Below, one piece after another: positions 10,854-60,658 of a DNA stretch of 64,000 bases. The stretch covers positions 124,001 to 188,000 of the forward strand of contig SNWL01000003.1 of NCBI GenBank assembly GCA_004362315.1, written 5' to 3'. Under the pieces are notes generated by a model. The model had not been told where the DNA came from. It saw only the letters and a list, made by a program, of their open reading frames with translations, and did not search any database. Made by a program: the position numbers and the translations under genes. The number at the start of each line of letters is the position of its first letter. Within the stretch, counting starts at the first letter, position 1. The stretch comes from Mycobacterium sp. BK086 (GTDB lineage: Bacteria > Actinomycetota > Actinomycetes > Mycobacteriales > Mycobacteriaceae).

Positions 10854-10860
10854 CGCGCCC

Positions 10861-10924: not shown

Positions 10925-10932
10925 CGCCCCGG

Positions 10933-11017
10933 GCCTGAGTGGTGGAATTTGGTAGACGCACTGCGTTCAGAGCGCAGCGGCCGTGAGGCCATGAGGGTTC
11001 GAGTCCCTCCTCAGGTA
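10933..11017 (+). tRNA. tRNA-Leu (CAG anticodon)
   Basis: A class II tRNA. The acceptor stem is GCCTGAG at 10933-10939 paired with CTCAGGT at 11010-11016 (one G-U pair at the end), with discriminator A at 11017. The D-arm has TGGTAGAC. The anticodon stem CTGCG/CGCAG closes the loop TTCAGAG, giving anticodon CAG. A variable arm GGCCGTGAGGCC and a T-arm GAGGGTTCGAGTCCCTC complete the fold. The CCA end is not encoded (CTT follows). It converges with lgt; the two ends are 13 bases apart. Confidence 0.95.
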
Positions 11018-11030
11018 CTTGCAAGCCGCG

Positions 11031-12400
<1,370 letters not shown>

Positions 12401-42886: not shown

Positions 42887-45001
42887 ATGCTGACCCCTAC
42901 TCGGACCCCGTTCTATCGCCACGACCTCGACGGGCTTCGCGGTGTCGCGATCGCCCTCGTTGCCGTGTTCCACGTGTGGTTCGGGCGGGTGTCGGGCGGC
43001 GTCGACGTGTTCCTGGTGCTCTCCGGATTCTTCTTCGGCGGTTCACTGTTGCGCACCGCGCTGAACCCCGACTCGTCGCTGTCCCCCTGGCCGGAGATCC
43101 TCCGGCTGGTACGGCGACTGCTGCCGGCACTCGTCGTGGTGCTTGCCGCGGGCGCGGTGTTGACCATCCTGGTGCAGCCTCAGACGCGCTGGGAGACGTT
43201 TGCTGACCAAAGCCTGGCGAGCCTGGGCTACTTCCAGAACTGGGAGCTGTCGGCAACGGCGTCGAACTATCTCCGGGCCGGTGAGGCGGTCAGTCCGCTG
43301 CAACACATCTGGTCAATGTCCGTTCAGGGGCAGTTCTACATTTCGATGCTCGCCGTTGTTTTCGGGTTTGCTTATTTCCTGCGCCGGCGACTCGGCAAAC
43401 GGTTGCGTGTGACTCTTGTGACTTTGCTGGTCACCGTCACGGTCGCGTCATTCGTCTTTGCCGTCATCCTCCACCTCTCCGATCAGACGGCCGCGTACTA
43501 CAACAGCTTCGCCCGCGCCTGGGAGCTGCTGCTCGGCACTCTCGTCGGTGCGGTGGTGCCCTACATCCGGTGGTCGATGTGGCTGCGGACCCTGCTGGCT
43601 AGCGCCGGGCTCGCCGCGATCGTCACGTGCGGCGCCTTCATCGACGGGGTGCGCGAATTCCCCGGCCCGTGGGCGCTGGTGCCCGTCGGCGCGACCGTGC
43701 TGATGATCCTGGCGGCGGCCAACCGACATGCCAGCCCCTCGACGCGCGACCGGCTACCGCTGCCGAGCCGCCTGCTGTCCGCGGCACCGTTGGTGACGCT
43801 GGGCGCGATGGCCTACTCGCTGTACCTGTGGCACTGGCCGCTGCTGATCTTCTGGCTCGCCGCCACCGACAAGAGCCATGCCGGCGTCGTCGACGGCGCG
43901 GTCATCCTGGCGATCTCGGGTGTGCTGGCGTACCTGACGATGCGCTTCGTCGAAGAACCACTGCGCTCCGGTCGGCGCGCCGGTTCGGTACCGAGCCCGC
44001 AGCAGATCACGCTCTCGTGGCGGGCCCGCCTGCGCAGGCCGACGATCGCGCTGGGCACCACCGTGGCACTGCTCGGGGTGGCACTGACGGCGACGTCCTT
44101 CACCTGGCGCGAACACGTCACCGTGCAGCGCGCCAACGGCAAGGAACTGGTCGCACTGTCCACCGACGGCTACCCGGGGGCACGGGCACTGACCCAACAT
44201 GCCCGGGTGCCGAAGCTGCCGATGCGGCCGACTGTGCTGGAGGCACAGAACGACCTGCCGGAGTCCACCAACGACGGCTGCATCAGTGATTTCGACAACA
44301 CCGACGTCATCAACTGCACCTACGGCGACAAGACCGCGACCAGGACGATCGCACTGGCCGGTGGGTCGCACGCCGAGCACTGGATCACCGCGCTGGACGC
44401 GCTGGCCAAGATGCATCACTTCAAGGTCGTCACCTACCTGAAGATGGGTTGCCCGCTGACCACCGAGGAACAACCTCTGGTGATGGGCGACAACCGGCCC
44501 TACCCCAACTGCCACACCTGGAACCAGAAGGTGATGGCCAAACTGATCAGCGACCACCCGAGCTTCGTGTTCACCACGTCGACCCGGCCGTGGAACATCA
44601 AGCCCGGCGACGTGATGCCGTCGACCTATATCGGAATCTGGCAAACGTTGTCGGACAACAATATTCCGATTCTCGCGATGCGCGACACCCCGTGGCTGGT
44701 GCGCAACGGCGCACCCTTCTTCCCGACGGACTGCCTGGCCAAGGGCGGTGACGCGGTGTCCTGCGGGATCGAGCGCTCCGAGGTGCTCTCCGACCGCAAC
44801 CAGACCCTGGACTTCCTGCCGATCTTTCCGCTGATGCGTGTCCTGGATCTCAGCGATGCGGTGTGCCGTGCCGACGTGTGCCGCGCGGTCGAGGGAAATG
44901 TGCTGGTCTACCACGACTCTCATCACATCTCCGCGACCTACATGCGCACCCTGATCCCGGAACTGGGCCGGCAGATGGGTGCGGCCACCGCCTGGTGGTG
45001 A
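42887..45001 (+). CDS. AT3-SGNH acyltransferase (OafA/YrhL type)
   Basis: Inner-membrane O-acyltransferase fused to an SGNH hydrolase-like domain, 704 residues. Residues 1-385 form the acyltransferase-3 domain with about ten helices: RHDLDGLRGVAIALVAVFHVWF holds the catalytic histidine region, then GGVDVFLVLSGFFFGG. A further helix near 390 leads to the extracytoplasmic SGNH domain (about 450-700), with the block I variant ALAGGSHAEHW and the block V YHDSHHISATYM. It would O-acylate an extracytoplasmic glycan or lipid; substrate unknown. The homologue Rv1565c sits, as I recall, in the same place between bioA and treX. Confidence 0.92.
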   Translation: MLTPTRTPFYRHDLDGLRGVAIALVAVFHVWFGRVSGGVDVFLVLSGFFFGGSLLRTALNPDSSLSPWPEILRLVRRLLPALVVVLAAGAVLTILVQPQTRWETFADQSLASLGYFQNWELSATASNYLRAGEAVSPLQHIWSMSVQGQFYISMLAVVFGFAYFLRRRLGKRLRVTLVTLLVTVTVASFVFAVILHLSDQTAAYYNSFARAWELLLGTLVGAVVPYIRWSMWLRTLLASAGLAAIVTCGAFIDGVREFPGPWALVPVGATVLMILAAANRHASPSTRDRLPLPSRLLSAAPLVTLGAMAYSLYLWHWPLLIFWLAATDKSHAGVVDGAVILAISGVLAYLTMRFVEEPLRSGRRAGSVPSPQQITLSWRARLRRPTIALGTTVALLGVALTATSFTWREHVTVQRANGKELVALSTDGYPGARALTQHARVPKLPMRPTVLEAQNDLPESTNDGCISDFDNTDVINCTYGDKTATRTIALAGGSHAEHWITALDALAKMHHFKVVTYLKMGCPLTTEEQPLVMGDNRPYPNCHTWNQKVMAKLISDHPSFVFTTSTRPWNIKPGDVMPSTYIGIWQTLSDNNIPILAMRDTPWLVRNGAPFFPTDCLAKGGDAVSCGIERSEVLSDRNQTLDFLPIFPLMRVLDLSDAVCRADVCRAVEGNVLVYHDSHHISATYMRTLIPELGRQMGAATAWW

Positions 45002-45048
45002 CATCTCGCGCATCGCTGCCGCCACGTCGATAAGGTCGAGAGATGTCA
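44999..45048. repeat. Inverted repeat linking acyltransferase stop and treX start
   Basis: TGACATCTC at 44999-45007 contains the acyltransferase stop; its exact reverse complement GAGATGTCA at 45040-45048 contains the treX ATG. The arms are 32 bases apart. In a read-through RNA they could pair and hide the treX start. Confidence 0.5.
45031..45036 (+). promoter_or_regulatory. Candidate -10 box of treX (leaderless start)
   Basis: TAAGGT fits TANNNT and ends six bases before the treX ATG, which has no clear Shine-Dalgarno. Confidence 0.5.
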
Positions 45049-47187
45049 TCGAGCGAACCCGCACGGACCACGGTGTGGCCCGGTACCGCCTACCCGCTCG
45101 GTGCCACCTACGACGGCGCGGGCACGAATTTCTCGCTGTTCTCCGAGGTGGCCGACCGCGTCGAGCTCTGTCTGATCGCCAAGGACGGCACCGAAACCCG
45201 CATTGAGCTCGACGAAGTGGACGGCTTCGTCTGGCACGCGTACCTGCCGACGATCAATCCCGGCCAGCGCTACGGATTCCGGGTGCACGGCCCCTGGGAC
45301 CCGGCCGCCGGCCACCGGTGCGATCCCAGCAAGCTGCTGCTCGACCCCTACGGTAAGTCGTTCCACGGCGACTTCGAGTTCAGCCAGGCGCTGTACTCCT
45401 ATGACCTCAACGCCGAGGACCTGGCCTCCGGCGGGACTCCGCCGATGGTCGACTCGCTGGGCCACACGATGACGAGCGTGGTCATCAACCCGTTCTTCCA
45501 GTGGGGCTCCGACCACGCGCCGCGCACGCCCTACAACGAGACGATCATCTACGAAGCCCACGTCAAGGGTCTGACCCAAACCCATCCGGGCATCCCCGAG
45601 GAATTGCGCGGCACGTACGCGGGCCTGGGCCACCCGGCGGTGATCGATCACCTCAAAGCCCTCAATGTCACCGCGATCGAGCTGATGCCGGTGCACCAGT
45701 TCATGCACGACCACCGGCTGATCGATCTGGGATTGCGAAACTACTGGGGCTACAACACTTTCGGTTTCCTCGCCCCGCACTATCAGTACGCGGCGACCAG
45801 GCATGCCGGCGGCGCCGTCGCCGAATTCAAGACGATGGTCCGCTCGTTCCACGAGGCCGGCATCGAGGTCATCCTCGATGTCGTCTACAACCACACCGCC
45901 GAGGGCAATCACCTCGGGCCGACGATCAATCTGCGGGGCATCGACAACGCCGCCTACTACCGCCTGATGGACGACGATCTGCGGCTGTATCGCGACTTCA
46001 CCGGTACCGGAAACAGTCTCAACCCCCGGCATCCGCACACACTGCAGCTGATCATGGACTCGCTGCGGTACTGGGTGCTCGACATGCACGTCGACGGTTT
46101 CCGATTCGATCTGGCCTCCACGCTGGCCCGGGAGTTCTACGAGGTCGACCGATTGAGCGCGTTCTTCGACATCGTGCAGCAGGATCCGGTGATCAGTCAG
46201 GTCAAGCTGATCGCCGAGCCGTGGGATGTCGGCGAGGGCGGCTATCAGGTCGGCAACTTCCCCAGCCTGTGGACCGAATGGAACGGCAAGTACCGCGACA
46301 CCGTGCGCGACTACTGGCGCGGCGAACCGGCCACCCTCGGCGAGTTCGCCTCCCGGGTGACGGGCTCCTCGGACCTCTATGAGGCGACCGGTCGCAGGCC
46401 GGGTGCCAGCATCAATTTCGTCACCTGCCACGACGGCTTCACACTGAACGATCTGGTGTCCTACAACGAGAAGCACAACGAGGCCAACGGCGAGGACAAC
46501 CGCGACGGCGAGAGCCACAACCGGTCGTGGAACTGCGGTGTGGAAGGCCCGACCGACGACCCGGAGATCCTTGCGCTGCGTCATCAGCAGATGCGCAATA
46601 TCCTGGTCACCCTGATGCTGTCGCAGGGCACCCCGATGATCGCCCACGGCGACGAGATCGGCCGCACCCAGCACGGCAATAACAATGTCTACTGCCAGGA
46701 TTCGCCGCTGTCTTGGATGGACTGGGACCTGCGCGAGACCAACGCCGATCTACTCGAATTCACCAAGAAGGTGACCGCACTTCGCAAGGCGCACCCCGTC
46801 TTTCGGCGGCGCCGCTTCTTCGACGGCGAGCCGATCCGCAGCGGCGACCAGGTCCGCGACATCGCGTGGCTCACGCCTGCGGGTCAGGAGATGACGCACG
46901 ACGACTGGGGCTCGGGCTTCAAATTCGTGGGCATGTTCCTCAACGGTGATGCCATCCCGGAACCGGACTCGCGCGGCGAACGCGTCGTCGACGACTCGTT
47001 TCTGTTGTGCTTCAACGCCCATGGCAAGCCGATCGACGTCGTCACACCCGACGGCGACTACGCCGAGCAGTGGACGGCGGTCCTGGACACCTCACATGCC
47101 GCAGGCAGCACCGACGCGGTGGTGAAGGCGGGCGAATCGATCACCGTGCCGGGTCGATCGGTTCTGGTGCTTCAAAAGAGCGGCTAG
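45043..47187 (+). CDS. treX: Glycogen debranching enzyme TreX
   Basis: Cleaves alpha-1,6 branches of glycogen-type glucan, giving linear chains for TreY. GH13 enzyme of 714 residues with an N-terminal CBM48-like domain (about 10-150). The catalytic residues read as Asp356 in DGFRFDLAS, Glu392 in LIAEPWDVGEGG and Asp464 in VTCHDGFTLND; NYWGYNTFGFLAPH and VVYNHTAEGNHLGP are also conserved. It heads treX-treY-treZ and appears leaderless. treY starts 17 bases after its stop. Confidence 0.97.
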   Translation: MSSSEPARTTVWPGTAYPLGATYDGAGTNFSLFSEVADRVELCLIAKDGTETRIELDEVDGFVWHAYLPTINPGQRYGFRVHGPWDPAAGHRCDPSKLLLDPYGKSFHGDFEFSQALYSYDLNAEDLASGGTPPMVDSLGHTMTSVVINPFFQWGSDHAPRTPYNETIIYEAHVKGLTQTHPGIPEELRGTYAGLGHPAVIDHLKALNVTAIELMPVHQFMHDHRLIDLGLRNYWGYNTFGFLAPHYQYAATRHAGGAVAEFKTMVRSFHEAGIEVILDVVYNHTAEGNHLGPTINLRGIDNAAYYRLMDDDLRLYRDFTGTGNSLNPRHPHTLQLIMDSLRYWVLDMHVDGFRFDLASTLAREFYEVDRLSAFFDIVQQDPVISQVKLIAEPWDVGEGGYQVGNFPSLWTEWNGKYRDTVRDYWRGEPATLGEFASRVTGSSDLYEATGRRPGASINFVTCHDGFTLNDLVSYNEKHNEANGEDNRDGESHNRSWNCGVEGPTDDPEILALRHQQMRNILVTLMLSQGTPMIAHGDEIGRTQHGNNNVYCQDSPLSWMDWDLRETNADLLEFTKKVTALRKAHPVFRRRRFFDGEPIRSGDQVRDIAWLTPAGQEMTHDDWGSGFKFVGMFLNGDAIPEPDSRGERVVDDSFLLCFNAHGKPIDVVTPDGDYAEQWTAVLDTSHAAGSTDAVVKAGESITVPGRSVLVLQKSG

Positions 47188-47204
47188 CGGGAACAGCCAC
47201 ACCT

Positions 47205-49502
47205 ATGGCCTTCCCGGTGCTGTCCACCTATCGCCTTCAGCTGCGCGGCCCTTCGGCCGGTGACGCTTTCACCTTGGCCGACGCCGAAAAACTCCTCGAC
47301 TACCTCGACGGCCTGGGTGTCACGCACCTGTACCTGTCCCCCATCCTGACCGCGGCCCCGGGCTCCACCCACGGCTACGACGTCACCGATCCCACCGCGG
47401 TGTCCGACGAGCTCGGCGGCCCCGACGGGCTGGCCCGGCTGGCCGAGGCCGCCAAGGCGCGGGGCCTCGGGCTGATCGTCGACATCGTCCCCAACCATGT
47501 CGGGGTGGATCAGCCCGAACGCAATCCGTGGTGGTGGGACGTGCTGCGCCACGGTCGCGATTCGGCCTACGCGGCGTTCTTTGACATCGACTGGTCGGTG
47601 GATCCCGACGGCCGAATCCTGTTGCCGGTGCTGGGTTCTGATGACGATGTGGCCGACCTGACGGTGGACGGCGACACGCTGCGGCTGGGTACTCTCGCGT
47701 TTCCGATCGCTCCCGGCACCGGCGCCGGCAGTGGCGCCGAGGTGCACGACCGGCAGGCGTACAAACTCATCGGCTGGCGCAACGGCGTGTGCGGCTATCG
47801 CCGGTTCTTCTCGATCACCTCGCTGGCGGGGCTGCGCCAGGAGGACCCTGCGGTATTCGAGACATCGCACGCCGAAGTGGCCCGCTGGTTCCGCGACGAT
47901 CTGGTGGACGGGGTGCGCATCGATCACCCCGACGGCCTGACCGACCCGACGGGATACCTTCGGTTGCTCCGCGATCTGATCGGGCCGCGAGCCTGGATCG
48001 TGATCGAGAAGATTCTGGGCGTCGGCGAGCCGCTGGACCCGACCCTGCCGATCGACGGCACCACCGGCTACGACGTGCTGCGCGAGGTGGGCGGCATCTT
48101 CGTCGACCCGACCGGCGCCGAGGCGCTGACCGATCTGGCAGGCGAGGCCGGGTTCGAGTGTTCCTCTGCGCCGGAGATGTTGCGTCAGTTGAAGATCGCC
48201 ACGGCCACCACCACCCTGGCCAGTGAGCTTGCCAGGGTGTGTCGCTCGATCGTCAGCGCCGTGGGTGTTGACCACCCGCAGCTGCCCGATGCGGTGGTCG
48301 CACTGCTCACGAATGTCGGCGTGTACCGGTCGGACTACCTGAATCTCTCGGCATTGCTGTCGGCCGCGTTGGCGCAGACGGTCACCGAGCAGCCGGCGCT
48401 GGCCGCACCGCTGGAACTGGTGTCGGCCGCATTGGTGTCCGCCGAGCCGGCCGCGCGGTTGCAGCAGCTCTGCGGGGCGATGACGGCAAAAGCGGTGGAG
48501 GACTGCTACTTCTACCGCGATCCGCGCCTGGTGTCGCTCAACGAAGTCGGCGGCGAGCCCGAGTGTTTCGGTATCAGTGCCGCCGAGTTCCACCGCAGCG
48601 CCGCTGTCCGCGGCCGGCTGTGGCCGCAATCGATGACCACCCTGTCCACCCACGACACCAAGCGCGGCGAGGATGTCCGCGCGCGGATCGGGGTGCTGTC
48701 GCAGGTGCCGTCGCTGTGGGCCGAGTTCGTGGCCAGCTGGCAGACCACGACGCCGGCACCCGACGCCACGACCGCACTGTTCCTGTTGCAGAACATCTTC
48801 GGGGTGTGGCCCGCTGACGGCGTGGTCACCGATGAGTTGCGCGAGCGGCTGCACGCCTACGCCGAGAAGGCGATCCGCGAGGCCGCGTGGCACACGTCGT
48901 GGAACGACCCGGACACCGAGTTCGAAGACGCCGTGCACTCCTGGCTGGATGCGGTCGTCGACGGCCCGGTCGCCACCGAGCTGACCGGGCTGGTGGTGCA
49001 GCTCGAACCTCATGCGCACAGCGATGCACTGGGCCAGAAGCTACTGGCGTTGACCGTGCCCGGTATCCCGGATGTGTACCAGGGCACCGAATTGTGGGAG
49101 GACAGCCTGGTCGACCCCGACAACCGCCGACCGGTCGACTACGCCGTGCGCGCCGGTGAGCTGGACCGTCTGTCGCACCCCAAGATTCGGGTCGTACGGG
49201 GTGCGTTGCAGGCCCGCCGGGATCGTCCCGACACATTCACGTCAGGTGAGTATCGGCCGGTGCTCGCGACCGGGAGCGCCGCCCACCACGTCGTGGCGTT
49301 CACCCGGGGTTCCGACGTGCTGGTCGCGGTCACCCGCTGGACCGTCCGGCTGCGTCACGACGGCTGGGGTGACACGATTCTGCCGTTGCCGGACGGGGTG
49401 TGGACCGACCGGCTGACCGGTTCACGATTCAGCGGACCGACCCCCGCAGGCGTGGTGTTCGGCGAGCTGCCCGTTGTGCTGTTGGAGAGGTCTGATGCCT
49501 GA
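47205..49502 (+). CDS. treY: Maltooligosyltrehalose synthase
   Basis: Converts the reducing-end alpha-1,4 bond of a maltooligosaccharide to alpha-1,1, making maltooligosyltrehalose. GH13-type enzyme; 765 residues, the mycobacterial length. STYRLQLRGPSAGDAFTLADA and THLYLSPILTAAPGSTHGYDV open the barrel; VDIVPNHVG, DGVRIDHPDGL (nucleophile Asp), WIVIEKILG (acid Glu) and STHDTKRGEDVRAR (third Asp) supply the active site. The stop overlaps the treZ start by eight bases. Confidence 0.97.
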   Translation: MAFPVLSTYRLQLRGPSAGDAFTLADAEKLLDYLDGLGVTHLYLSPILTAAPGSTHGYDVTDPTAVSDELGGPDGLARLAEAAKARGLGLIVDIVPNHVGVDQPERNPWWWDVLRHGRDSAYAAFFDIDWSVDPDGRILLPVLGSDDDVADLTVDGDTLRLGTLAFPIAPGTGAGSGAEVHDRQAYKLIGWRNGVCGYRRFFSITSLAGLRQEDPAVFETSHAEVARWFRDDLVDGVRIDHPDGLTDPTGYLRLLRDLIGPRAWIVIEKILGVGEPLDPTLPIDGTTGYDVLREVGGIFVDPTGAEALTDLAGEAGFECSSAPEMLRQLKIATATTTLASELARVCRSIVSAVGVDHPQLPDAVVALLTNVGVYRSDYLNLSALLSAALAQTVTEQPALAAPLELVSAALVSAEPAARLQQLCGAMTAKAVEDCYFYRDPRLVSLNEVGGEPECFGISAAEFHRSAAVRGRLWPQSMTTLSTHDTKRGEDVRARIGVLSQVPSLWAEFVASWQTTTPAPDATTALFLLQNIFGVWPADGVVTDELRERLHAYAEKAIREAAWHTSWNDPDTEFEDAVHSWLDAVVDGPVATELTGLVVQLEPHAHSDALGQKLLALTVPGIPDVYQGTELWEDSLVDPDNRRPVDYAVRAGELDRLSHPKIRVVRGALQARRDRPDTFTSGEYRPVLATGSAAHHVVAFTRGSDVLVAVTRWTVRLRHDGWGDTILPLPDGVWTDRLTGSRFSGPTPAGVVFGELPVVLLERSDA

Positions 49503-51228
49503 ATTCGCGGTGTGGGCACCACTGCCCAAGCTCGTGCGCCTCGACGTCGACGGGCAGCTGCACGAGATGACGTCCGGCGACGACGGCTGGTGGCGCGCCG
49601 ACGTCGATTGCGCGCCCGATGCCCGTTACGGCTTTGTCCTGGAAGACGATCCGACTGTGCTGCCCGATCCGAGGTCGGCTCGTCAGCCCGACGGCGTGCA
49701 TGAGCGCTCGCAGCGGTGGGATCCTGCGGCGGTGTCGTGGTCGGATCAGCAGTGGGCCGGTCGCTCGATCGAGGGTGCCGTCATCTACGAGCTGCACACC
49801 GGAACATTCACTGACGAGGGCACTTTCGAGGCCGCCATCGAGAAGCTGGACTATCTGGTAGATCTCGGGGTCGACTTCGTCGAGCTGATGCCCGTCAACG
49901 CCTTCAACGGCAGCCACGGCTGGGGATACGACGGTGTGCTGTGGTACGCCGTGCACGAACCCTACGGCGGCCCAGACGGTTTGGCGCGTCTGGTCGATGC
50001 CTGTCATGCCCGCGGGCTCGGCGTGCTGATCGATGCGGTGTTCAACCATTTCGGCCCGTCGGGTAACTACCTTCCCCGGTTCGGACCGTATCTGTCCGCC
50101 GTGAGCAACCCGTGGGGCGAGGGCGTCAACCTCGCCGGGCCGGACGCCGACGAGGTGCGCAACTACATCATCGAATGCGCGCTGCGCTGGATGCGCGACT
50201 TCCACGTCGACGGCCTGCGGCTGGACGCCGTGCACGCGCTCGTCGACAACACGGCCATCCATATCCTCGAGGAACTGTCCGCCGAAACCGATGCGCTCTC
50301 AGCGGTTCTGGGCCGGCCACTGTCGCTGATCGCCGAGAGTGACCTCAACGATCCGCGACTGATCACTCCCCGGGATCGCGGAGGCTACGGCCTGACCGCC
50401 CAATGGGACGACGACATCCATCACGCCATCCACACCGCGGTGTCCGGCGAACGGCAGGGCTACTACGCCGATTTCGGCTCGATGGCCACGCTGGCCAGCA
50501 CCCTGCAGAACGGCTACTTCCACGCGGGCACCTACTCGTCGTTCCGGCACCGAAGGCACGGCAGGCCGCTGGACAGGGCGCTGATCCCGGCCACCCGGCT
50601 GATGGCCTACACCACCACCCACGATCAGGTCGGCAACCGGGCGGTCGGCGATCGGCCCTCGCAAAACCTGGATTTCGGCCAGCTCGCGATCAAAGCCGCG
50701 CTGGTCTTCGGATCGCCCTATACGACAATGCTTTTCATGGGCGAGGAGTGGGGATCGTCTCGACCGTTCCAGTTCTTCAGCTCCCATCCCGAGCCGGAGC
50801 TGGCGATCGCGACGGCCGAGGGACGCAAGGCGGAGTTCGCCGATCACGGGTGGGATGCCGACGATGTGCCAGATCCGCAGGATCCGCAGACCTTCCTGCG
50901 ATCCAAGCTGGACTGGACCGAGATCGCCGGCGGTGACCATGCCCGGCTGCTGGAGTTCTACCGCGGTCTGATCGCGTTGCGCGACGACGAGCCCGACATG
51001 GCAAACGCGTGGCTGGGTGACCTGGTGGTCGACTACGACGAGGACGAGCGCTGGATCGTGATGCGCCGCGGCCGAGTTGCGATCGCCTGCAACCTCGGCG
51101 AGCAAACGGCCAGGGTTCCGGTCACCGGCGAGGTGTTGCTGCACTGGGGTGATCCCGCTGTGAGACCCGGCGGTTCGACCCTGCCCGGCCATTCCGTGCT
51201 GGTAGCGCTGACCGGGGTCGACGCGTGA
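49495..51228 (+). CDS. treZ: Maltooligosyltrehalose trehalohydrolase
   Basis: Releases trehalose from maltooligosyltrehalose. 577 residues: an N-terminal CBM48-like domain (FAVWAPLPKLVRLDVDG), then the GH13 barrel with VELMPVNAFNGSHGWGYDGV, VFNHFGPSGNYLP, GLRLDAVHAL (nucleophile Asp), LIAESDLNDPR (acid Glu) and TTTHDQVGN (third Asp). The ATG overlaps treY by eight bases. The next gene, the large synthase, starts 58 bases after its stop from its own apparent promoter. Confidence 0.97.
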   Translation: MPEFAVWAPLPKLVRLDVDGQLHEMTSGDDGWWRADVDCAPDARYGFVLEDDPTVLPDPRSARQPDGVHERSQRWDPAAVSWSDQQWAGRSIEGAVIYELHTGTFTDEGTFEAAIEKLDYLVDLGVDFVELMPVNAFNGSHGWGYDGVLWYAVHEPYGGPDGLARLVDACHARGLGVLIDAVFNHFGPSGNYLPRFGPYLSAVSNPWGEGVNLAGPDADEVRNYIIECALRWMRDFHVDGLRLDAVHALVDNTAIHILEELSAETDALSAVLGRPLSLIAESDLNDPRLITPRDRGGYGLTAQWDDDIHHAIHTAVSGERQGYYADFGSMATLASTLQNGYFHAGTYSSFRHRRHGRPLDRALIPATRLMAYTTTHDQVGNRAVGDRPSQNLDFGQLAIKAALVFGSPYTTMLFMGEEWGSSRPFQFFSSHPEPELAIATAEGRKAEFADHGWDADDVPDPQDPQTFLRSKLDWTEIAGGDHARLLEFYRGLIALRDDEPDMANAWLGDLVVDYDEDERWIVMRRGRVAIACNLGEQTARVPVTGEVLLHWGDPAVRPGGSTLPGHSVLVALTGVDA

Positions 51229-51272
51229 GTAAATAATTTGTCAAACGCTCAGGTCGTTCTCAGGTTCGGCGG

Positions 51273-51278
51273 TATCGT
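51273..51278 (+). promoter_or_regulatory. Candidate -10 box of the FAAL-PKS gene (leaderless start)
   Basis: TATCGT fits TANNNT and ends eight bases before the GTG at 51287, which lacks a Shine-Dalgarno. It suggests the synthase is transcribed separately from treXYZ; the rest of the 58-base gap has no terminator hairpin. Confidence 0.45.
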
Positions 51279-51286
51279 CATCCGCT

Positions 51287-54200
51287 GTGGACGAGTCGTC
51301 CCTCCCGGGGGTTTTACGTGAGCGTGCCCGCACGCAGCCAGATGAGCAAGCAGTTACCTATGTCGATTACGAGCTGGATCCCGCAGGAGTTGCCGAGACC
51401 CTGACCTGGGCGCAGCTCTACCGGCGGACGTCGAACGTCGCGCGTGCGCTCAGGTCGTGTGGTTCAACCGGCGACCGCGCCGTCATTCTCGCGCCACAAG
51501 GATTCGAGTACCTCGTGGCCTTCCTAGGCGCGTTGGAGGCCGGACAGATCGCGGTTCCGCTACCGCTCCCAGTGTCCGGGTCGGAAGATGAGCGCGTCAG
51601 TTCGGTACTTCTCGACGCGTCGCCGTCCGCGATCCTCACCACATCGGCCGTTGTGGGCAGCCTCGCCGAGTACCTCCGGCGCAGCGCCGGCCAGGCCGCG
51701 CCATCGGTCGTCGAGGTCGACTTGCTGGACCTTGATCTCGAGGTGGAATCCGGCGCGGAGACAGTGAGCCTGCCGCGCGTCGCGCATCTGCAGTACACCT
51801 CCGGGTCGACCCGCACGCCGGCGGGAGTCATGGTTTCGCACGAGAACCTTCGAGTCAATTGCGAGCAGTTGCTCTCCGCGTATTACGGGCACGGCGTTCC
51901 GCCGGACAGCACCGTGGTGTCGTGGTTGCCGTTCTTCCACGACATGGGATTGATCACGAACGTCGCCTTTCCCATCTTCGGCGGATTTCGCACCGTGCTG
52001 ACCAGTCCGCCGGCTTTCCTGCAGCGGCCGGCGCGGTGGATGCAGTTGATGGCCAGCAACAGCGAGGTGTTTTCGGCAGGTCCGAACATTGCGTTCGAGT
52101 TGGCGGCAGCAAAAACCTCAGATGACGACCTGGCCGGGCTTGACCTGGCGGGCGTGCGAAACATCGTCAATGGCGCCGAACGGGTGAACCCCCGGACGCT
52201 GCGGCGCTTCGCAGAGCGGTTCGCCCCGTTCAATTTTCGCCCTGAGGCGCTGCGGCCCTCGTACGGGCTCGCCGAGGCCGTGGTGTACGTGACGACCACA
52301 AAAGCGGGCCAACCACCGCAGACCGTGCACTTCGAGTCCGACAAGTTGATCGCCGGCCAGGCGTCGCGGTGCGCATCCGGCGAAGGCACGTCGTTGGTCA
52401 GCTACAGCCTGCCGCCGTCACCCACGGTGCGGATCGTCGATCCCGAGACCCGGGTCGAATGTCCCGAGGGAACTGTCGGGGAGATCTGGGTGCACGGCGA
52501 CAATGTGTGTGACGGGTACTGGCAGAAGCCGGAAGAAACGGAACGCACGTTCGGGGCAACGCTTGTCGATCCGGCTGACGGCACGCCCGAGTCGCCCTGG
52601 CTGAGAACCGGCGATCTGGGGTTCGCTTCCGACGATGAACTGTTCATCGTCGGCCGGATCAAGGATCTACTGATCGTCTACGGACGCAATTACGCGCCCG
52701 ACGATATCGAGGCGACGATCCAGGAGATCACCGCGGGCCGTGTCGTCGCGGTAGCGGTTCCCGACGAAGACGGTGTCGAAAAGCTGGTCACCATCGTCGA
52801 ATTCAAGTCCCGTGGCGATTCCGAGGAGGCCGCGCAGCGAGTAACCGACGTCAAGCGCAAGATCACCGCCGCGGTTTCGAGGACCCATGAACTGGGGATC
52901 GCCGACCTCGTCATGGTGCCGCCTCATTCGATTCCGCTGACCACCAGCGGCAAGGTCAGGCGACGGGATTCGCTGAAGCTTTATCTGGGCGGCACGTTCA
53001 CCCGGCTCGACGAGCTGATCCGACCGCCGGCGCGCCAAGCGGCCGAGGACACCGATGTCACCCCGGAGGCGGACTCCGGGTGGTCGCAACGCCTGCGCAC
53101 TCTGCGTGCGCAGCAGCAGGACATCCTCCTCGGACTGGTGAGAGCCCAAGTGGCGAGTGTGCTGGACAATCTCAGCCCCGACGACATCGACCCGGAGGTC
53201 CCGTTCCGGGATCTGGGATTCGACTCGGTGAAGGCGACCGAGTTGATCGACCGACTCAAGAACGTCACCGCGCTGACGTTGCCGCCCACATTGGCCTTCG
53301 ACCACCCCACCCCGAATGCGCTGGCCACCCATCTGGGGCACCTGTTGAGCGGATCTGTCCCCGCCGCGGCGCAGGTGGCGTCACGAGCCGAATCGGCGGA
53401 GCCAATTGCCGTGGTGGGCATGGCTTGTCGATTCCCCGGTGGTGTGGAATCGACGGCGGGGTTGTGGGATGTGGTGGCCAGTGGCCGCGAAGCGCTCGGC
53501 CCTTTTCCGACTGACCGCGGCTGGAATTTGGCGAACCTGTTCGATCCCGACCCCGATGCCGTAGGCAAGACCTACACCCGAGTGGGAGGGTTTCTGGCCG
53601 AGGCGGCCGACTTCGACGCGGAATTTTTCGCAATCTCGGACCGCGAGGCCCGAACCATGGACCCACAACAGCGGCTGGTGTTGGAGGTGTGCTGGGAAGC
53701 ACTGGAGAACGCCCGGATCGATCCCGCCGGTTTGGCCGGTTCGAAGACGGGAGTGTTCCTCGGGGCCTGGGCCCAAGACTATGGCGCTGGGGGTTCCGAG
53801 GGCGCCGAAGGGTACGCCATGACGGGCGGGTCTCCCAGCGTTGCCTCCGGGCGCATCTCCTACACGCTGGGTCTGCAGGGACCCGCGATCACCGTCGACA
53901 CGGCGTGCTCGTCCTCGCTGGTAGCCACCCATCTGGCATGTCAGTCGTTGCATAGCGGCGAGTCCAGCATGGCGCTGGCCGGCGGGGTCACCGTGATGGC
54001 CACACCAGCGGTGTTCACCGAGTTCGCCAGGCAACGGGGTCTTGCAGTCGATGGGCGCTGCAAAGCATTCTCCGCCGACGCCGATGGCACCGGCTGGGGT
54101 GAGGGCGCGGCTATGGTCGTCCTGGAACGGCTCAGCGACGCGCGCCGCAACAACCACCCGGTGCTGGCGGTCATCGCGGGATCGGCAGTCAACTCCGACG

Positions 54201-57200
54201 GCGCCTCCAACGGATTGAGCGCGCCCAACGGGCCTGCCCAACAACGCGTCATCACCGAGGCCGCTGCCAACGCCGGTGTCGGACTGGATCAGGTCGACGT
54301 CGTCGAGGCCCACGGCACGGGCACCACGCTGGGCGACCCGATCGAGGCCGGTGCACTGCTCGCCACCTACGGTGCGGCGCACGGGGATTCGCACCCGTTG
54401 TGGCTGGGCTCGATCAAATCGAACATCGGCCACACGCAGGCGGCCGCCGGCGTCGCCGGAATCATCAAGATGATCGAGGCGCTCAACCACGACAGCTTGC
54501 CCCCGACCCTGCACGTCGATCACCCCAGCCCCGGCATCGACTGGTCGACCCGCACCGTTCGCCTTCTCGCCCAACCTGTTCCGTGGCCGGAAACCGATCA
54601 TCCTCGCACGGCGGCAGTGTCATCCTTCGGGATCAGCGGCACCAACGCGCACCTGATCTTGCAACAACCCCCGGCGGCCGAACCGGTTGAACGAACCGCA
54701 ACCGCCGACTTCGGAGTGCGGATGTGGCCGATATCTGCGCGCACCCCTGCGGCATTGTGCGCGCAAGCCGATCGGCTCCATCGTTTCCTGACCGGCAATC
54801 CCGATCTGGATCTGACCGATGTCGCCTACAGCCTGGGCGCCACTCGCGCGCATCACCCCTATCGGGCTGCCATCGCTACCCCGGCGGACTCCGGCACCGC
54901 GCGCGACGACCTGCTGAGCGCTCTGGACGCTCTGCGCAGCGACGAACCCCATCCGCATCTGGTGCGCCACCACTTCCTGGCCCGCCTTCGGGGTAAGACC
55001 GTGTTCGTCCTGCCGGGCCAAGGCGCACAGTACGAGGGCATGGGCCGGGAACTCTACGAACACCACCGCGTCTTCGCCGAAACCGTCGATGCCTGTGATG
55101 AAGCGTTGCGACCGCTGGTCGGCTGGTCAGTCCGCGAGGTCTTACGTCAGGAGCCGTCGGCCCCGGCGCTGGACCGAGTCGATGTGGTTCAGCCCGTGCT
55201 GTTCACCATGATGGTCTCGCTGGCCGAGGTGTTGGCCGGCTACGGGATCGTTCCCGACGCGGTGATCGGTCACTCTCAGGGCGAAATCGCCGCGGCGTAC
55301 ATCGCCGGAGCGTTGACCTTGCCCGAGGCCGTCGCGGTGGTGGCCCGGCGCAGTCAGGCGCTGCGCGCCCTGCGAGGTACCGGCGGCATGGCGTCGGTGC
55401 TGCTGGCGGCCGAGCGGGTGGAGCCGCTCCTGCACCCCTGGGGCGATGCTCTCAGCATCGCCGCGGTCAACGGCCCGTCGCACACCATCGTCAGCGGAGA
55501 CCCCGCCGCGCTGGAAGAGTTCAGTGCGGCATGCGATCGCGACGGCATCCACTTCCGGCTTATCGCCGTCGACTACGCCTCGCATTCCGCTCAGGTGGAA
55601 CCGGCACGTGAGCGGCTGCTGGCCGAACTGGCCGACCTGAAGCCCACAGCCTCCAACATCCCCTTGTACTCCACCGTGGGAGGGGCGCTCGACACCAATC
55701 CCCTCGACACCACCACGATGACCGCCGAGTACTGGTACCGCAACCTGCGCGAGCCGGTGCGGTTCCATGACCGGGTAGCCCAGCTTCTGGCTGCCGGCCA
55801 AACCACATTTGTGGAGTTGTCCCCGCACCCGGTATTGGCCCCTGCGATCACCGACACCGTGACCCAATCGACAGATTCGGCCCAATCGGCGGTGGTCATC
55901 ACGTTGCATCGCGACCGGTCCGACCGCGACAGCCTGGCCACCGCGTTGGCGCAGCTGCACACGCACGGACAGAGCCCGGCGTGGTCGGCCCTGTACCCAG
56001 GAGCCCGCAGCGTCGCGTTGCCCACCTACGCCTTCCAACACCGCCACTACTGGATAACACCCACCCCGGCGCCCGCCGCCGTCAGCAGTCCGGCCGAAGG
56101 GGCGCTATGGCAGGCGATCGACGATGACGCAGTCGATACGGTCGCCGAGCTGTTGGGTTTGAGCGACGGCGACAGCGCGGCACCACTGGGAACCGTCGTC
56201 CATGCGATGCGGCAGTGGCGCAGCACCCTTGGTCTCCGGTCCGCGGCGAATAAGCTTCGCTACCAAGTCAATTGGCGAGCAACAACGCCGAATACGTTCC
56301 CGTCGACCCGGCGCCGATGGCTCGTGTTGGCCTCCCCCGACCAAGCCGATGACGGGTGGATAACCGGCTTGTCGGAGCGGTATGCGGATTCGGTAGAACT
56401 GCTCACTGTCGATCCGGGCGAGGTCGACAGGAGCTCCTTATCGGCCCTGTTGACCACGGCCGCCACCCGCGCTCATTGCGACGGGATCATCTCGTTCCTG
56501 GCCACAGATGACCGGGAGCACCCGGATTTTCCCGGGCTGACGGTCGGCGTGCTCGCCACACTTCTTGTCGCACAAGCCCATTGCGATTCCGGTCTTGGAT
56601 TGCCGTTGTGGGTGGTCACCCACAATGGGGTTTCGGTATCCCCCGACGACGGTGCCGCGCGGCCGAGCCAGTCCGCGGTATGGGGGCTAGGGCAGTCGGC
56701 CTGTCTCGAACATCCCGATCTGTGGGGCGGGTTGATCGATCTTCCGCCCAGCGCTACACCACGCGACATCGAGCAGCTTTACGCGATAGTGAGCTGCCCG
56801 CAAGCAGAAGACCAACTTGCGATACGTAGCCACGGGGTGAGCGCGCGTCGCTTGATCGAGGCCTCGCTGCCGTCGGAACTCTTGGACCGTCCCCACAGCT
56901 GGAATCCGTCGGGACCGGCGCTTATCACAGGTGCGACAGGGCGTTTGGGTAAACACCTGGCCGGCTGGCTGGCCGAAGCGGGCGCCAATCCCATTGTCCT
57001 GCTGAGCCGAAGTGCGGCAACCGATCCGCAGTTGGCCGAATTGGCGAGTGAGCTCCAAGCCCGCGGAGTGACCACGACATCGGTATCGGTCGATCTGACC
57101 GATCGGTCGGCGCTGGCGACCGTCCTGACCGACATTCGCAGCGCACACGGACCCATTCACACTGTCGTACATGCCGCGGCGGCCATCGGATGGAACACCA

Positions 57201-59377
57201 TCACCGACCTGACAGCCGAGGTGTTCTACGACAGTTATGCCGCCAAGGCCGTAGGGGCCGAACACCTGGTTGAGCTACTCGACGACGACCCACCGGAAAC
57301 CTTCATTCTGTTCTCCTCCGCCGCTGCCACGTGGGGCGGCGCCTACCAGGGCGCCTACGCCGCCGCCAATGCCCACATCGATGGGCTGGCGGCGCGGTTG
57401 CGGGCCAACGGCCGCACTGTGCTGGCACCGGCGTTTGGGCTGTGGGCAGACGAGTCCGGCAACATGCCGGCCGAGGTTCTCGACTCTTTCGAACGAATCG
57501 GACTCAACGAGATCCCGCCCACGACTGCGCTGGCCGCACTGCAACAGGCGGTCGAGGCACACGACACGCTGATCACCATCGCCGACGTCTCATGGGACAG
57601 ATTCCTGCCCGCATTCACCGCTCGCCGCTCACACCCGCTGTTCAACGACGTGGTGTCACGACCGGATACCACCGAAACCACCAGCGGCACCGCTACCGCG
57701 AGCGCATCGGCACTTCGCGAAACGCTGGCCGCTCAAACCGCCGAAGAACAGCGACACACCTTGACCGCCATGGTTGCCGGTTCTGCCGCCGCGGTGCTGG
57801 CCCACCCCGACCCGGACGCTCTGCACGACGACGTGGCGTTCAAAGACCTCGGTATCGACTCCCTCACCGCCGTCGAATTGCGCAACTCGCTGGCCACCCG
57901 CACTGGGCTCAGCCTGCCTGCGACCCTGGTCTTCGACCACCCCACCACCACGTCACTGGTGACGCACCTCGTCGACCTACTGAGCGACACCGCTGCGCCT
58001 ACGGCCGCGGCGGCTGCCACCAGCACCAGTAGTGAAGTGGCACCGGACAATAGGCTCGCACTCGTAGATCAGGCGTCCTATCTCGCGGAGCGAGCGGTCC
58101 ATAGCGCGCTGATTCAATTCACCTGGGTCTACAACCGCGGCGTCGATGTCGACGGGTTACGGCGGTTTCACCGCAACCTTGGCGTGGGGTTGTTGGGCCG
58201 CAGGATCGAACGGTCCCCGATCCCGTTCGCCCGTCATCGCTGGGTCCTGTCCCCGGTGTCGGAGGACATCGACTTCGCCGCTACGCCGCGACGGCGCGAC
58301 GAAATAAGCGAATGGGCAGACGAGCGGGCGCGCCGACCTATCGACGCCGAGCACGGACCCGGCTGGCATCTCGGGGTGCTTCCGCTCGAAGACGGCGGGG
58401 CGGCGGTGACTTTGGTGGTTTCACATAACATCGCCGACGGGATGGCCGTCGGCCGGGCGATAGCTGATGCTGTTGAGGGCAGGACGCCCGATCTCGGCTA
58501 TCCACCCGCGGGATCTCGCGCCCGCGGCCGCGCATTCCGTGAGGATCTACGACTCACCGTCGCAGAACTGCCTGCCATTCCTCGGGCGATGACGGCCGTG
58601 ATGCGACGGGCTCGACAGGGTCGCGATGAATTCACGTCACCGGGCAAGGGGGCATTGCCTGCCCGGCGGACGGCCGGCAACGCTCAAGCAGCGGAAGTGC
58701 CTGTCCTGACCGCATTCGTCGACCTGGCAGAGTGGGATGCCCGTGCGAAAGAGCTTGGCGGGAACAGTAACTCGCTGGCAGCTGGATTCGCCTGCAGACT
58801 CGCGGCGAGAGTGGGGCATGTCAATGCCGACGGAACGGTCACGCTACGACTTCCGGTAACCATTCGGACCGAGGACGATAACAGTGGTAATGCCCTTACG
58901 GCTGTCGACGTCCGGGCCGACCCGAGCCACGCCGTGACCGAGCTCGGGGAATTGCACGCGAAGATCACCCAGGCAACCCTGGAAGCGATGGACAACTCCG
59001 ACGAATTCCTGGCGCCGCTCCCCCTCGTGCCGATTACACCGAAATGGGTGATCAGGAAACTGGCAGGCGCGGTGGCCGGTGGTGCCGGCCTCGTCACGTG
59101 TTCCAATGTCGGCGACATGCCCCCGGCGGTGAACCGGCCCGACGGCAGCGACGCCGATTACGTGTACGTCACACCTGTCGAGCCCGGTATCACGAAGAGC
59201 ACACTGGAAGTCTTCGACGGGCGGCTGTTGGTCGTTTCGGGGCGGCTGCGAGGGAAGGTCGTCATCACGATCTCCGCATACCTTCTCGGTGGACCAAATT
59301 CGAAAACCGAACTACGAGAGATTATTTCGCAGACTTTCGCCGAATTCGATCTGACCGCAGAGATGGACTACAAGTAG
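51287..59377 (+). CDS. FAAL-ACP-KS-AT-KR-ACP-acyltransferase megasynthase
   Basis: One 2696-residue lipid synthase. Domains: fatty acyl-AMP ligase about 1-580 (YTSGST at 170-175, [28 protein letters not shown], Lys556 in [10 protein letters not shown]); ACP1 with Ser647 ([11 protein letters not shown]); ketosynthase 705-1125 with Cys874, His1009 and His1049; acyltransferase about 1237-1535 with Ser1330 in [10 protein letters not shown] and YASH at 1430-1433, a methylmalonyl-type motif; a reductase linker; ketoreductase about 1876-2060 with GATGRLG and Tyr2024 (YAAAN), no LDD motif, so probably A-type; ACP2 with Ser2192 ([11 protein letters not shown]). Residues about 2250-2696 resemble WS/DGAT, PapA and condensation acyltransferases, with H2380xxxDG. 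No dehydratase, enoylreductase, thioesterase or terminal reductase. Predicted chain: activated fatty acid, one methylmalonyl extension, ketoreduction, then acyl transfer to an unknown alcohol or amine. It follows treXYZ; its stop abuts that of ilvA. Confidence 0.93.
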
Positions 59378-60658
59378 TCAGGTCAAATACCGGTAGGCAG
59401 GCGAGCCTGGCTCAAGGGCTTCGACGTGGATACCGGAGGCGGTCATCCGCGCCCGCAGTCCGTCGAGCCCGGTGGCCGAGCCGAGTTCCACACCGACGAG
59501 CGCCTCACCGGTTTCCCGGTTGTTCCGCTTGACGTACTCGAACAGCGTGATGTCGTCGTTCGGCCCCAGCACCTCGTCGAGGAAGCGGCGCAGCGCGCCG
59601 GGCTCCTGCGGGAAGTCGACCAGGAAGTAGTGCTTGAGGCCAAGGTGCACCAGCGAGCGCTCCAGTACCTCACCGTATCGGGACACGTCGTTGTTGCCGC
59701 CCGAGATCAGGCACACCACCGTCGAGCCCGGTTCGACATCGGCCTCCAGCAGGCCCGCCACCGTCAGCGCACCGGCGGGCTCGGCGATGATGCCCTCGTT
59801 CTGATAGAGGTCGAGCATCGCCGTGCAGACCGCGCCCTCGTCGACCGTGGTGACCGAGACCATGTCGCCGGCGGCGGCCAGCGCCTGATACGTCAACGTC
59901 CCGGCCTGTTTGACGGCCGCTCCGTCGACGAACTGGTCGACGTGGTCGAGCTGCACCGGGCCGCCGGCGGCCAGTGCCGCGATCATGGATGCCGCGCCGG
60001 CGGGCTCGACGCCCAGCACCGCGGTATTCGTTGTCCGTTCCGCCAGGTAGGTGGTGATCCCGGCGATGCAGCCACCGCCGCCGACCGGCACGATCACCAG
60101 GTCGGGCTCGCCGTCGAGCTGCTCGAGGATCTCCACCGCGATGGTGCCCTGTCCGGCCATGGTGCGCGGATCGTCGAACGGCGGGACCAGGGTGGCCCCG
60201 GTGCGCGCGACGTCCTCCAGCGCGGCGTCGGCGGCCAGGTCGTAGGTGCTGCCACCGACGATCAGCTCGATGAACTCCCCGCCGTGGTAGCGGATACGGT
60301 CACGCTTCTGCTTGGGAGTCTTGGCAGGCACGTACACCCGCCCGTGCACGCCCATCGAGCGGCAGGCCAGCGCAAAGCCCTGGGCATGGTTACCGGCCGA
60401 CGAGCACACCACGCCGGCGGAAAGTTCCTGCTCGGAGAGCTGTCGCAGCAGGTTGTAGGCACCGCGCAGCTTGTAGGACCGCACACTTTGCAGGTCCTCG
60501 CGCTTGAGGTAGACCTCGGCGCCGGTGGCCTGCGAGAGCCGGTCGCTGTGCTGCAGCGGGCTCTGGCTGATCACGCCGGAAATTCGCTGAGCAGCCTCAT
60601 CGATGTCAGCCGCGGTAAGCGGCGCTGACAGTCGGTGCTGGCTCAGTTCGGCGGACAC
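59378..60658 (-). CDS. ilvA: Threonine dehydratase (biosynthetic)
   Basis: PLP enzyme that deaminates threonine to 2-oxobutanoate, opening isoleucine synthesis. Catalytic domain about 1-335: YLKREDLQSVRSYKLRGAYNLL with the PLP lysine, CSSAGNHAQGFA, VGGGGCIAGI and the serine of CLISGGNNDVS. The C-terminal domain (about 340-426, LGLKHYFLVDFPQEPGALRRFLDE) is a single ACT-like regulatory unit; the 426 residues are the short actinobacterial form rather than the 514-residue E. coli form. It starts at GTG. Its stop touches the stop of the convergent synthase gene with no spacer. Confidence 0.97.
   Translation of the reverse strand: MSAELSQHRLSAPLTAADIDEAAQRISGVISQSPLQHSDRLSQATGAEVYLKREDLQSVRSYKLRGAYNLLRQLSEQELSAGVVCSSAGNHAQGFALACRSMGVHGRVYVPAKTPKQKRDRIRYHGGEFIELIVGGSTYDLAADAALEDVARTGATLVPPFDDPRTMAGQGTIAVEILEQLDGEPDLVIVPVGGGGCIAGITTYLAERTTNTAVLGVEPAGAASMIAALAAGGPVQLDHVDQFVDGAAVKQAGTLTYQALAAAGDMVSVTTVDEGAVCTAMLDLYQNEGIIAEPAGALTVAGLLEADVEPGSTVVCLISGGNNDVSRYGEVLERSLVHLGLKHYFLVDFPQEPGALRRFLDEVLGPNDDITLFEYVKRNNRETGEALVGVELGSATGLDGLRARMTASGIHVEALEPGSPAYRYLT

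Follow-up and report, generated by a model that had tools for sequence, protein, structure and literature searches.

The 64,000-nucleotide stretch of DNA analysed here (the window; Mycobacterium sp. BK086, contig SNWL01000003.1, positions 124,001 to 188,000) encodes a large polyketide synthase (PKS) directly downstream of genes for trehalose synthesis (Table 1). The synthase joins in one protein: (i) a fatty acid-AMP ligase (FAAL) and an acyl carrier protein domain (ACP1), (ii) ketosynthase (KS), acyltransferase (AT) and ketoreductase (KR) domains, (iii) a second carrier domain (ACP2), and (iv) a C-terminal domain (CT) with an HxxxD acyltransferase motif. The gene is intact, a single stop-free frame of 2696 residues that opens with GTG, and the order FAAL-ACP-KS-AT-KR-ACP-CT given in a preliminary description of the locus is confirmed.

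Table 1. Coordinates of the synthase gene, its domains and the flanking genes in the window.
Feature	Position	Strand	Evidence
Synthase gene, 2696 aa	51287..59377	+	Intact ORF, Pfam, NCBIfam, dN/dS 0.19 vs M. sphagni ENV482 (L069)
FAAL, residues 3-575	51293..53011	+	NF004509, 917 bits; nearest among solved structures is FadD23, with FadD28 next
ACP1, residues 618-683, takes the starter (predicted)	53138..53335	+	PF00550; LGFDSV 643
KS, residues 705-1077	53399..54517	+	PF00109 and PF02801; C-H-H motifs
AT, residues 1239-1562	55001..55972	+	PF00698; RVDVVQ/GHSQGE/YASH
Rossmann structural subdomain preceding KR, residues ~1774-1855 (weak)	56606..56851	+	PF22953, 24.7 bits (cut-off 27)
KR, residues 1878-2055, A-type fingerprint	56918..57451	+	PF08659; motif comparison
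ACP2, residues 2160-2235	57764..57991	+	Second PF00550 stretch; LGIDSL 2188
CT, WS/DGAT-like HxxxD acyltransferase (predicted), residues 2250-2696; H2380, D2384	58034..59374	+	Weak Pfam/NCBIfam, alignment, model, fold, profile
sucT, heads the co-directional run	42887..45001	+	NF058601, 1351.8 of 1275 bits
treX and treY, trehalose synthesis	45043..49502	+	Pfam; names from domains and gene order
treZ, 58 bp upstream of the synthase	49495..51228	+	Alpha-amylase and DUF3459 Pfam domains; name from domains and gene order
ilvA, convergent, its stop directly next to that of the synthase; bounds the insertion on the right	59378..60658	-	PF00291 and PF00585; empty site in relatives

The domains upstream of CT are assigned by Pfam and NCBIfam matches above cut-off. 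Pfam places AMP-binding at residues 10-412, KS at 705-1077, AT at 1239-1562, KR at 1878-2055 and PP-binding at two stretches (the better at 618-683), and NCBIfam returns fatty-acid--AMP ligase NF004509 for residues 3-575 (917.4 bits, cut-off 775) and PKS_plus_SDR NF045894 (1981 bits, cut-off 1740). The active-site motifs, stated in the preliminary description to be kept, are all found by direct reading of the sequence: YTSGST (170) and TTSGK (552) in the FAAL, LGFDSV (643) in ACP1, DTACSSS (871), EAHGTGT (1007) and NIGH (1046) in the KS, GHSQGE (1328) in the AT, a ten-residue motif (1881), SSA (2010) and YAAAN (2024) in the KR, and LGIDSL (2188) in ACP2. With these motifs read in what we take to be their usual catalytic meanings, the protein holds a type I modular PKS module of KS, AT, KR and ACP, each with its catalytic motif. 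The AT set RVDVVQ/GHSQGE/YASH is presumably the signature of methylmalonyl selection, and the KR fingerprint (no LDD, the W of TWGG, and Q before the catalytic Y) is taken to be A-type. The FAAL aligns to the structure of FadD23 (8hd4, 751 bits; residues 4-576 to 25-597) with small gaps only and thus includes the FAAL-specific insertion. Among named NCBIfam models, FadD21 and FadD28 score best, both below cut-off. FadD23 itself is an enzyme of the sulfolipid-1 pathway. Dehydratase (DH), enoylreductase (ER), sulfotransferase and thioesterase domains were not found by Pfam in the synthase protein.

The gene is maintained by selection and is shared with relatives. A copy with 96% identity over the ACP2-CT query occupies the same site in M. 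sphagni ENV482 (L069; L and G numbers denote loci and genomes), and the ratio of nonsynonymous to synonymous substitution rates (dN/dS) between the two has a value of 0.192 for the whole gene and of 0.095-0.256 for the five domains examined (CT 0.14, KR 0.095), which indicates purifying selection on them and argues that the signal is not due to chance. The same-site copy, together with an ACP2-CT fusion in at least 44 of 396 Mycobacterium genomes, also led to rejection of a singleton or assembly artefact; the enzyme is unusual, as the preliminary description held, but it is no singleton. The GC content at third codon positions is 0.768 in the synthase gene versus 0.83-0.87 in five neighbouring genes, consistent with acquisition from elsewhere.

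The last 447 residues of the synthase have no Pfam or NCBIfam match above curated cut-off. The best Pfam match, WS_DGAT_cat PF03007, reaches 21.6 bits against a cut-off of 23.6 (22.6 bits when the genome was searched), and the domain scores 28.3 of 309.95 bits against TIGR02946 and E 0.31 against Condensation PF00668; by score, CT is thus outside the curated WS/DGAT family. The motif H-NIA-D-G at residue 2380 is weak evidence by itself, as H...D[GA] is present in 244 of 2000 shuffles of CT, and a second copy of the motif at 2511 is not conserved. The H and D of the first copy (2380/2384) are, however, invariant in all 28 aligned fused and stand-alone relatives; the sixth motif position is occupied by G in 20 of these and by A in the other 8, so that the family motif is HxxxD[G/A]. 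The predicted structure of CT, based on an alignment of 26 sequences (A3, which omits L118, with an internal stop, L116 and L146), has a mean pLDDT of 82.3 and a pTM of 0.83 and positions HxxxD at model residues 131-135, between a strand (123-130) and a helix (136-147). Foldseek matches this model with probability 1.00 to nonribosomal peptide synthetase (NRPS) condensation domains, the WS/DGAT enzyme 6chj, TRI3 and the enacyloxin condensation domain 6cgo; the top match is AzeD (8s6l, 1.4e-16), and TM-scores among the best 50 rows are moderate, at 0.43-0.62 on query length. In profile comparison by hhalign, CT matches eight WS/DGAT proteins of its own genome at 97.5% probability (E 5.1e-12, 409 columns, HxxxDG aligned; 97.0% and 264 columns with the narrower alignment A3). 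By contrast, no profile homology is detectable to seven PapA2-like proteins (1%, 11 columns), and the identification of CT as a PapA was rejected on this probability. A search of solved structures with the CT profile returned only five phosphatase-activator matches (E 0.013-0.016), which were judged to be chance. The fold, the profile and the conserved H and D thus identify CT as a predicted member of the HxxxD acyltransferase superfamily of WS/DGAT descent. The terminal HxxxDG acyltransferase of the preliminary description, in place of a thioesterase or reductase, is upheld on these grounds.

Retention of the motif also bears on whether CT acts at all. CT might not be the releasing enzyme, being vestigial, serving in docking, or giving up the chain to CoA or else to a distinct PapA protein for the final transfer. 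The variation of the last motif residue would fit such a role, as would the presence, about 45-50 kb away in this genome, of genes for a PapA2-like protein and two stand-alone CTs. Against it stand the invariant H and D, a CT dN/dS that falls inside the range of the other domains, the lack of any other release domain found in the synthase by Pfam, and the retention of one fusion clade in at least 44 of 396 genomes; we thus consider a non-releasing CT improbable.

The synthase departs from the known mycobacterial systems of separate FadD, Pks and Pap proteins, as stated in the preliminary description, and its proposed logic is that of FadD32-Pks13, with FadD fused and the terminal thioesterase replaced. 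Like the window protein as read here, FadD32-Pks13 combines a FAAL that loads an N-terminal ACP, a KS-AT-ACP unit for one condensation, and an end domain by which the chain reaches an acceptor; in mycolic acid condensation this is the Pks13 thioesterase domain, which transfers the chain to trehalose (PMC7261415). The window protein differs in its fused FAAL, an extender that is methylmalonyl by signature, the presence of a KR, and a WS/DGAT-like CT in place of the thioesterase, and it reaches only 790.7 of 2100 bits against the curated Pks13 model NF040607. The Pks5/Pks2 systems with FadD and PapA, which make LOS (lipooligosaccharides), sulfolipids and acyltrehaloses, are composed of separate proteins and an iterative PKS. 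They share with the window synthase a FAAL of the FadD21/23/28 kind and (predicted) methyl-branched chains, and their genes are adjacent to the synthase in relatives; unlike them, the window synthase unites all its parts in one chain, with a single KS-AT-KR set of modular type and an acyltransferase other than PapA, and it scores below the cut-off of the Pks2/Pks5-type iterative model NF041183 (776.8 of 2400 bits).

Release of a PKS chain by a member of the HxxxD superfamily has a parallel in the enacyloxin condensation domain 6cgo, which would resemble CT in this role. The enacyloxin domain is a separate protein that uses a cyclic acid acceptor, whereas CT is fused and WS/DGAT-like. Certain fungal PKSs have a fused C-terminal carnitine-acyltransferase domain (HxxxD) that off-loads on polyols; these belong to another family and are iterative, with no FAAL. 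Fusion of FAALs to PKSs is itself known from cyanobacteria and Pseudomonadota, and the cyanobacterial olefin synthase (OLS) layout has been likened to the FAAL-PKS layout of M. tuberculosis (PMC11837247); FAALs of bacteria are also fused to whole PKS/NRPS genes (PMC8460268). A FAAL-PKS-acyltransferase fusion from mycobacteria, or a product of one, was not found by title or abstract in the open-licence literature, a scope outside of which most subscription papers lie; the statement that no product is described for this layout stands to that extent.

The likeness to OLS, drawn in the preliminary description, raises the alternative that the enzyme makes terminal alkenes or free acids. PMC11837247 gives OLS the same FAAL-ACP-KS-AT-KR-ACP order, followed by a sulfotransferase-thioesterase end that yields terminal alkenes. 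The likeness does not extend beyond this order: the window protein ends in CT, with neither sulfotransferase nor thioesterase found, its AT is methylmalonyl-type, and its FAAL is of the mycobacterial kind near FadD23/FadD28. An olefin synthase was rejected on domain content, AT type and FAAL type, and its probability is considered negligible.

The number of extension cycles is suggested by the kinship of the module. The KS-AT part scores 965 bits against the DEBS-type structure 6c9u versus 649 bits against MAS, and the stretch from KS to KR scores 1281 bits against modular DEBS-type 7s6c; the better match to modular enzymes favours a single extension cycle. Iterative use of the module would instead give a multi-methyl chain. 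MAS, Pks2 and other mycobacterial methyl-branched synthases are iterative, which counts for this alternative; it is nevertheless very unlikely given the modular match and the occurrence of two modules in the relatives expected to extend twice.

The synthase is thus proposed to be a self-contained enzyme that makes a 2-methyl-3-hydroxyacyl group and transfers it through CT to an acceptor, for which trehalose or an acyltrehalose is the likeliest candidate, a reading that we hold to be probable by a narrow measure. The FAAL would activate a free fatty acid as acyl-AMP and load it on ACP1; the KS would then catalyze one condensation of this starter with a methylmalonyl unit placed on ACP2 by the AT; and the A-type KR would reduce the 3-oxo group. 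As DH and ER are lacking, the predicted product on ACP2 is a 2-methyl-3-hydroxyacyl chain. CT would take this chain from ACP2 and esterify a hydroxyl of the acceptor, such that the chain is released as a glycolipid and not as an acid. The chemistry up to ACP2 is well supported by domain content and motifs, at the level of prediction from sequence. The ACP2 donor is inferred from the fusion, and trehalose or acyltrehalose as acceptor, suggested by gene context, has somewhat better than even standing.

Gene context, which the preliminary description did not use, points to trehalose glycolipids through the treXYZ genes of the window and the pks5-papA loci of relatives. In the window, sucT, treX, treY, treZ and the synthase follow one another on the same strand, and the synthase is at the treZ site also in L069 and in Mycolicibacterium sp. 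P1-5 (L107). No FAAL was found within 1.5 kb beyond treZ in 15 genus relatives with the treZ locus; ilvA, visible in 8 of the 15, is 3 to 1255 bp from treZ by aligned ends (3-87 bp in five), and the treZ-ilvA junction of these relatives represents the empty site of the synthase insertion. Neighbours were scanned for 52 of 57 fused loci, and the five others (L076, L089, L098, L104 and L108, on short contigs) were scanned later. Genes for pks5 and papA are beside 6 of 10 loci with a KR-only last module (KR-type loci), and pks5 is beside a seventh (L200, in the next stretch read), versus 0 of 42 loci of other types, several of which are on short contigs; the window copy is itself outside a pks5-pap locus. 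Of the loci scanned later, L104 (M. simiae, 1-6968) holds a fused copy that is cut before its loop and retains just ACP2-CT, with papA and pks5 after it on the opposite strand; papA and pks5 are not beside the other four. In M. asiaticum and in G522, the synthase gene is between papA plus pks5 and a second pks5. Synthesis of LOS, which are acylated on trehalose, requires two pks5 genes flanking a pap gene (PMC7261415). The papA products match PapA2, a trehalose-2-sulfate acyltransferase, at 525 bits in M. asiaticum and 562 bits in the genome of the window.

The genome of the window has CT relatives in similar settings. Flanked by ileS and lipL, at a distance of about 45 kb from the synthase gene (G000:C1 ~228630-239120; L171, L172), is a likely acyltrehalose cluster in the order pks5-papA-CT-CT, with two stand-alone CTs, the PapA2-like gene, a Sap (sulfolipid-1-addressing) gene and a glycosyltransferase gene. 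Two further stand-alone CT paralogues (L173 3611-8551; L175 645-8812) are beside MmpS-MmpL genes, which often adjoin papA genes. In three loci of the nearest stand-alone CT clade (L111, L131 and L133), read gene by gene, a FAAL/CT pair is found with MmpL, glycosyltransferase, papA and pks5 genes. CT relatives thus accompany trehalose-lipid genes and lipid exporters.

Several observations weigh against trehalose as the acceptor. Only three loci show the adjacency to treXYZ, and treZ and ilvA frequently adjoin each other in any case, so that the treXYZ site may be no more than a landing place. The KR-type loci are related copies (three M. asiaticum strains and two broken two-module forms, with L081 elsewhere), such that the pks5/papA tally is no test of independent events, and the members of other types have different neighbours, e.g., met, icd and trpS-like genes in the M. 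kansasii complex. CT has no detectable profile in common with PapA proteins, the known trehalose acyltransferases. The usual substrates of WS/DGAT enzymes are CoA donors together with lipid alcohols or diacylglycerol, and the acceptor could thus be a lipid alcohol. The occurrence of 2-methyl-3-hydroxy acids in the LOS of M. canettii is also entered on this side; a search of the open-licence literature for the predicted acids in mycobacterial LOS gave nothing usable, for or against.

The alternative that follows from these points retains the same chain but has CT transfer it to a lipid alcohol, a diol or another non-trehalose acceptor, to form a wax-ester-like or diol ester lipid. It is encouraged by the nearness of CT to WS/DGAT rather than PapA, by the many members away from trehalose or pks5-papA loci, and by the glycosyltransferase, AT3-SGNH, epimerase and ABC-transporter genes around other members, which suggest varied acceptors. 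The KR-type members beside pks5 and PapA2-like genes, and the position of the window gene behind treXYZ, speak for the trehalose reading instead, and we regard a non-trehalose acceptor as rather unlikely, yet the most serious of the alternatives.

The window synthase is a member of a recurring ACP-CT fusion family of mycobacteria that is, as far as found, previously undescribed. The count of at least 44 genomes is for rows matching from query position 13 or earlier, with at most three candidates scored per genome and two rows having an internal stop. Outside the genus, no synthase-length frame is among the matches listed: the longest CT-matching frame is 839 aa in 298 genomes of the order and 1097 aa in 151 genomes at the family level. 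A tree of 127 CTs unites all 56 fused rows and one contig-edge row (L108, scored as stand-alone) in a clade with SH-aLRT 100, for which a single fusion event is the simplest reading. The nearest large clade of stand-alone CTs comprises 26 rows, 24 of which have a stand-alone FAAL at the same locus, as expected of the partners of a fusion; the remaining two are short contigs. These 24 FAALs also form one clade and are the nearest kin of the fused FAALs among those sampled, which were all from loci fetched through CT. Adjacent genes of a glycolipid cluster thus seem to have been joined into the one chain of the fused protein.

Within the family, the part between AT and ACP2 is variable. Among 38 loci, window included, with ligase and CT in one frame, this part is: (i) empty in three (L094, L102 and L109), which have the order of FadD32 plus Pks13 except for the last domain, (ii) DH in one (L107), (iii) KR in eight (the window, L069, L074, L081, L087, L106, L176 and L177), (iv) DH-ER-KR in 21, and (v) DH-ER-KR with a FadD22-like ligase in five (L110, L148, L180, L181 and L182). 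These types were assigned by Pfam for the window, L070, L102, L107 and L110 and by domain matches, motifs or segment length for the others; the FadD22-like ligase was examined by NCBIfam in L110 and L148, which by this model are of the p-hydroxybenzoate type but score 1010.6 and 1028.1 of 1228 bits, below the cut-off of the FadD22 model. Of 43 named loci scanned for domains, 26 are complete; the remaining 17 are either truncated by contig ends or unread bases or divided among several frames or genes. Local gene calls were made with a simple codon-usage script, and genome numbers overlap with the named loci (e.g., G069 is L071/L102 and G124 is L085).

The sequence fingerprints FINGERPRINTS track this architecture, in that those of AT and KR follow the ligase and the type of the AT-to-ACP2 part. 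The set RV[DE]V[VI]Q, GHSQGE and YASH is found in 42 of 42 CT-bearing members without a FadD22-like ligase (41 YASH, 1 YAAH), and GHS[VI]GE with HAFH in the five of five with this ligase; we take the GHSQGE/YASH set as the methylmalonyl and GHS[VI]GE/HAFH as the malonyl signature. The A-type KR pattern (no LDD, TWGG) is in 10 of 10 loci with a KR-only last module, while L[DE]D without W, presumably the B-type pattern expected before a dehydratase, is in 39 of 39 remaining CT-bearing rows with a KR (37 distinct). Genes that were decaying or mis-assembled would not be expected to agree in this way. The five FadD22-type loci (L110 at 2408-11680) each have a Rv2949c-type chorismate pyruvate-lyase-like gene directly upstream (identified by Pfam for L110 and by similarity for the rest), a gene absent from the 47 other loci scanned. 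These five are apparently one-protein phenolic lipid synthases, as judged from their predicted domains. Pks15/1 functions in phenolic glycolipid synthesis (PMC7261415). The L110-type members have a FadD22-like ligase in common with the FadD22 plus Pks15/1 system but are fused in one CT-ending protein. FadD22, as its NCBIfam name also suggests, presumably provides the phenolic glycolipid starter for Pks15/1.

Exchange of parts is suggested by L107 (4313-11668), which is at the same treZ-ilvA site as the window gene and has a FAAL that groups with the window FAAL (SH-aLRT 100); it has DH in place of KR and a CT from another branch of the family. Forcing its CT together with the window CT gives p 0.018 in the approximately unbiased (AU) test, a value somewhat flattered since the L107 group was chosen by site and FAAL tree after the CT tree had been seen. 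Recombination behind the starter-loading part is the simplest reading of this locus. The CT clade tests used 43 of the 56 fused rows, the 13 others (mostly cut contigs) having been dropped beforehand; the KR-type members as one CT clade give AU p 0.235. The start codon lies in a stretch of at least 34 bp (window 51271-51304) that is identical in the window, L069 and L107, although the FAAL proteins diverge by up to 19%; a ribosome-binding-site-like GGAGG in L069 and L107 is GGCGG in the window.

Module number also varies. In M. innocens and M. ostraviense (L197 1367-17653; L198), the synthase is spread over two genes with two full DH-ER-KR modules, FAAL-ACP-KS-AT-DH-ER-KR-ACP and KS-AT-DH-ER-KR-ACP-CT, and is predicted to make a 2,4-dimethyl chain. 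Two-module copies beside pks5 in the single-contig genomes G246 (L178/L199) and G085 (L179/L200) each run over several frames, with a second module of the A-type KR kind in both; their frame breaks may be due to decay or sequencing error.

Considered together, one fusion may have given rise to a mobile mix-and-match platform: a constant frame (ligase-ACP-KS-AT ... ACP-CT) would accept a fatty or p-hydroxybenzoyl starter, recombination would swap the AT-to-ACP2 part (none, DH, A-type KR or DH-ER-KR) and the number of modules (one or two), and the WS/DGAT-like domain would act on ACP-bound chains to esterify a trehalose-type glycolipid. This broader proposal is tentative and is held at a little less than even strength. 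If it is true, a gene would predict whether its chain is 2-methyl-3-oxo, 2-methyl-3-hydroxy, 2-methyl, 2,4-dimethyl or p-hydroxyphenylalkanoyl, as chain branching, oxidation state and extension number could be read from the domains of the ACP-CT family. The KR-only form, including the window synthase, would predict 2-methyl-3-hydroxy acids, a known LOS component that to our knowledge has no assigned enzyme; for the two-module form with its predicted 2,4-dimethyl chain, the LOS of M. kansasii contain 2,4-dimethyltetradecanoate. Surface glycolipids of mycobacteria shape colony form, the envelope barrier and host recognition, and we know of no assigned synthase for most of their acyl chains outside a few studied species. 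Transfer of an ACP-bound polyketide in cis by an acyltransferase of WS/DGAT descent would also be an unusual form of PKS termination, and the natural set of swapped parts around a fixed frame would be useful for PKS engineering.

Two further observations concern individual genomes. In G206 (L176, 11557-13299), a DDE transposase gene is between the synthase and papA and is a possible trace of movement of the synthase gene. Elsewhere in the genome of the window (G000:C5 530601-550398) are large NRPS frames, one of which is 5204 aa.

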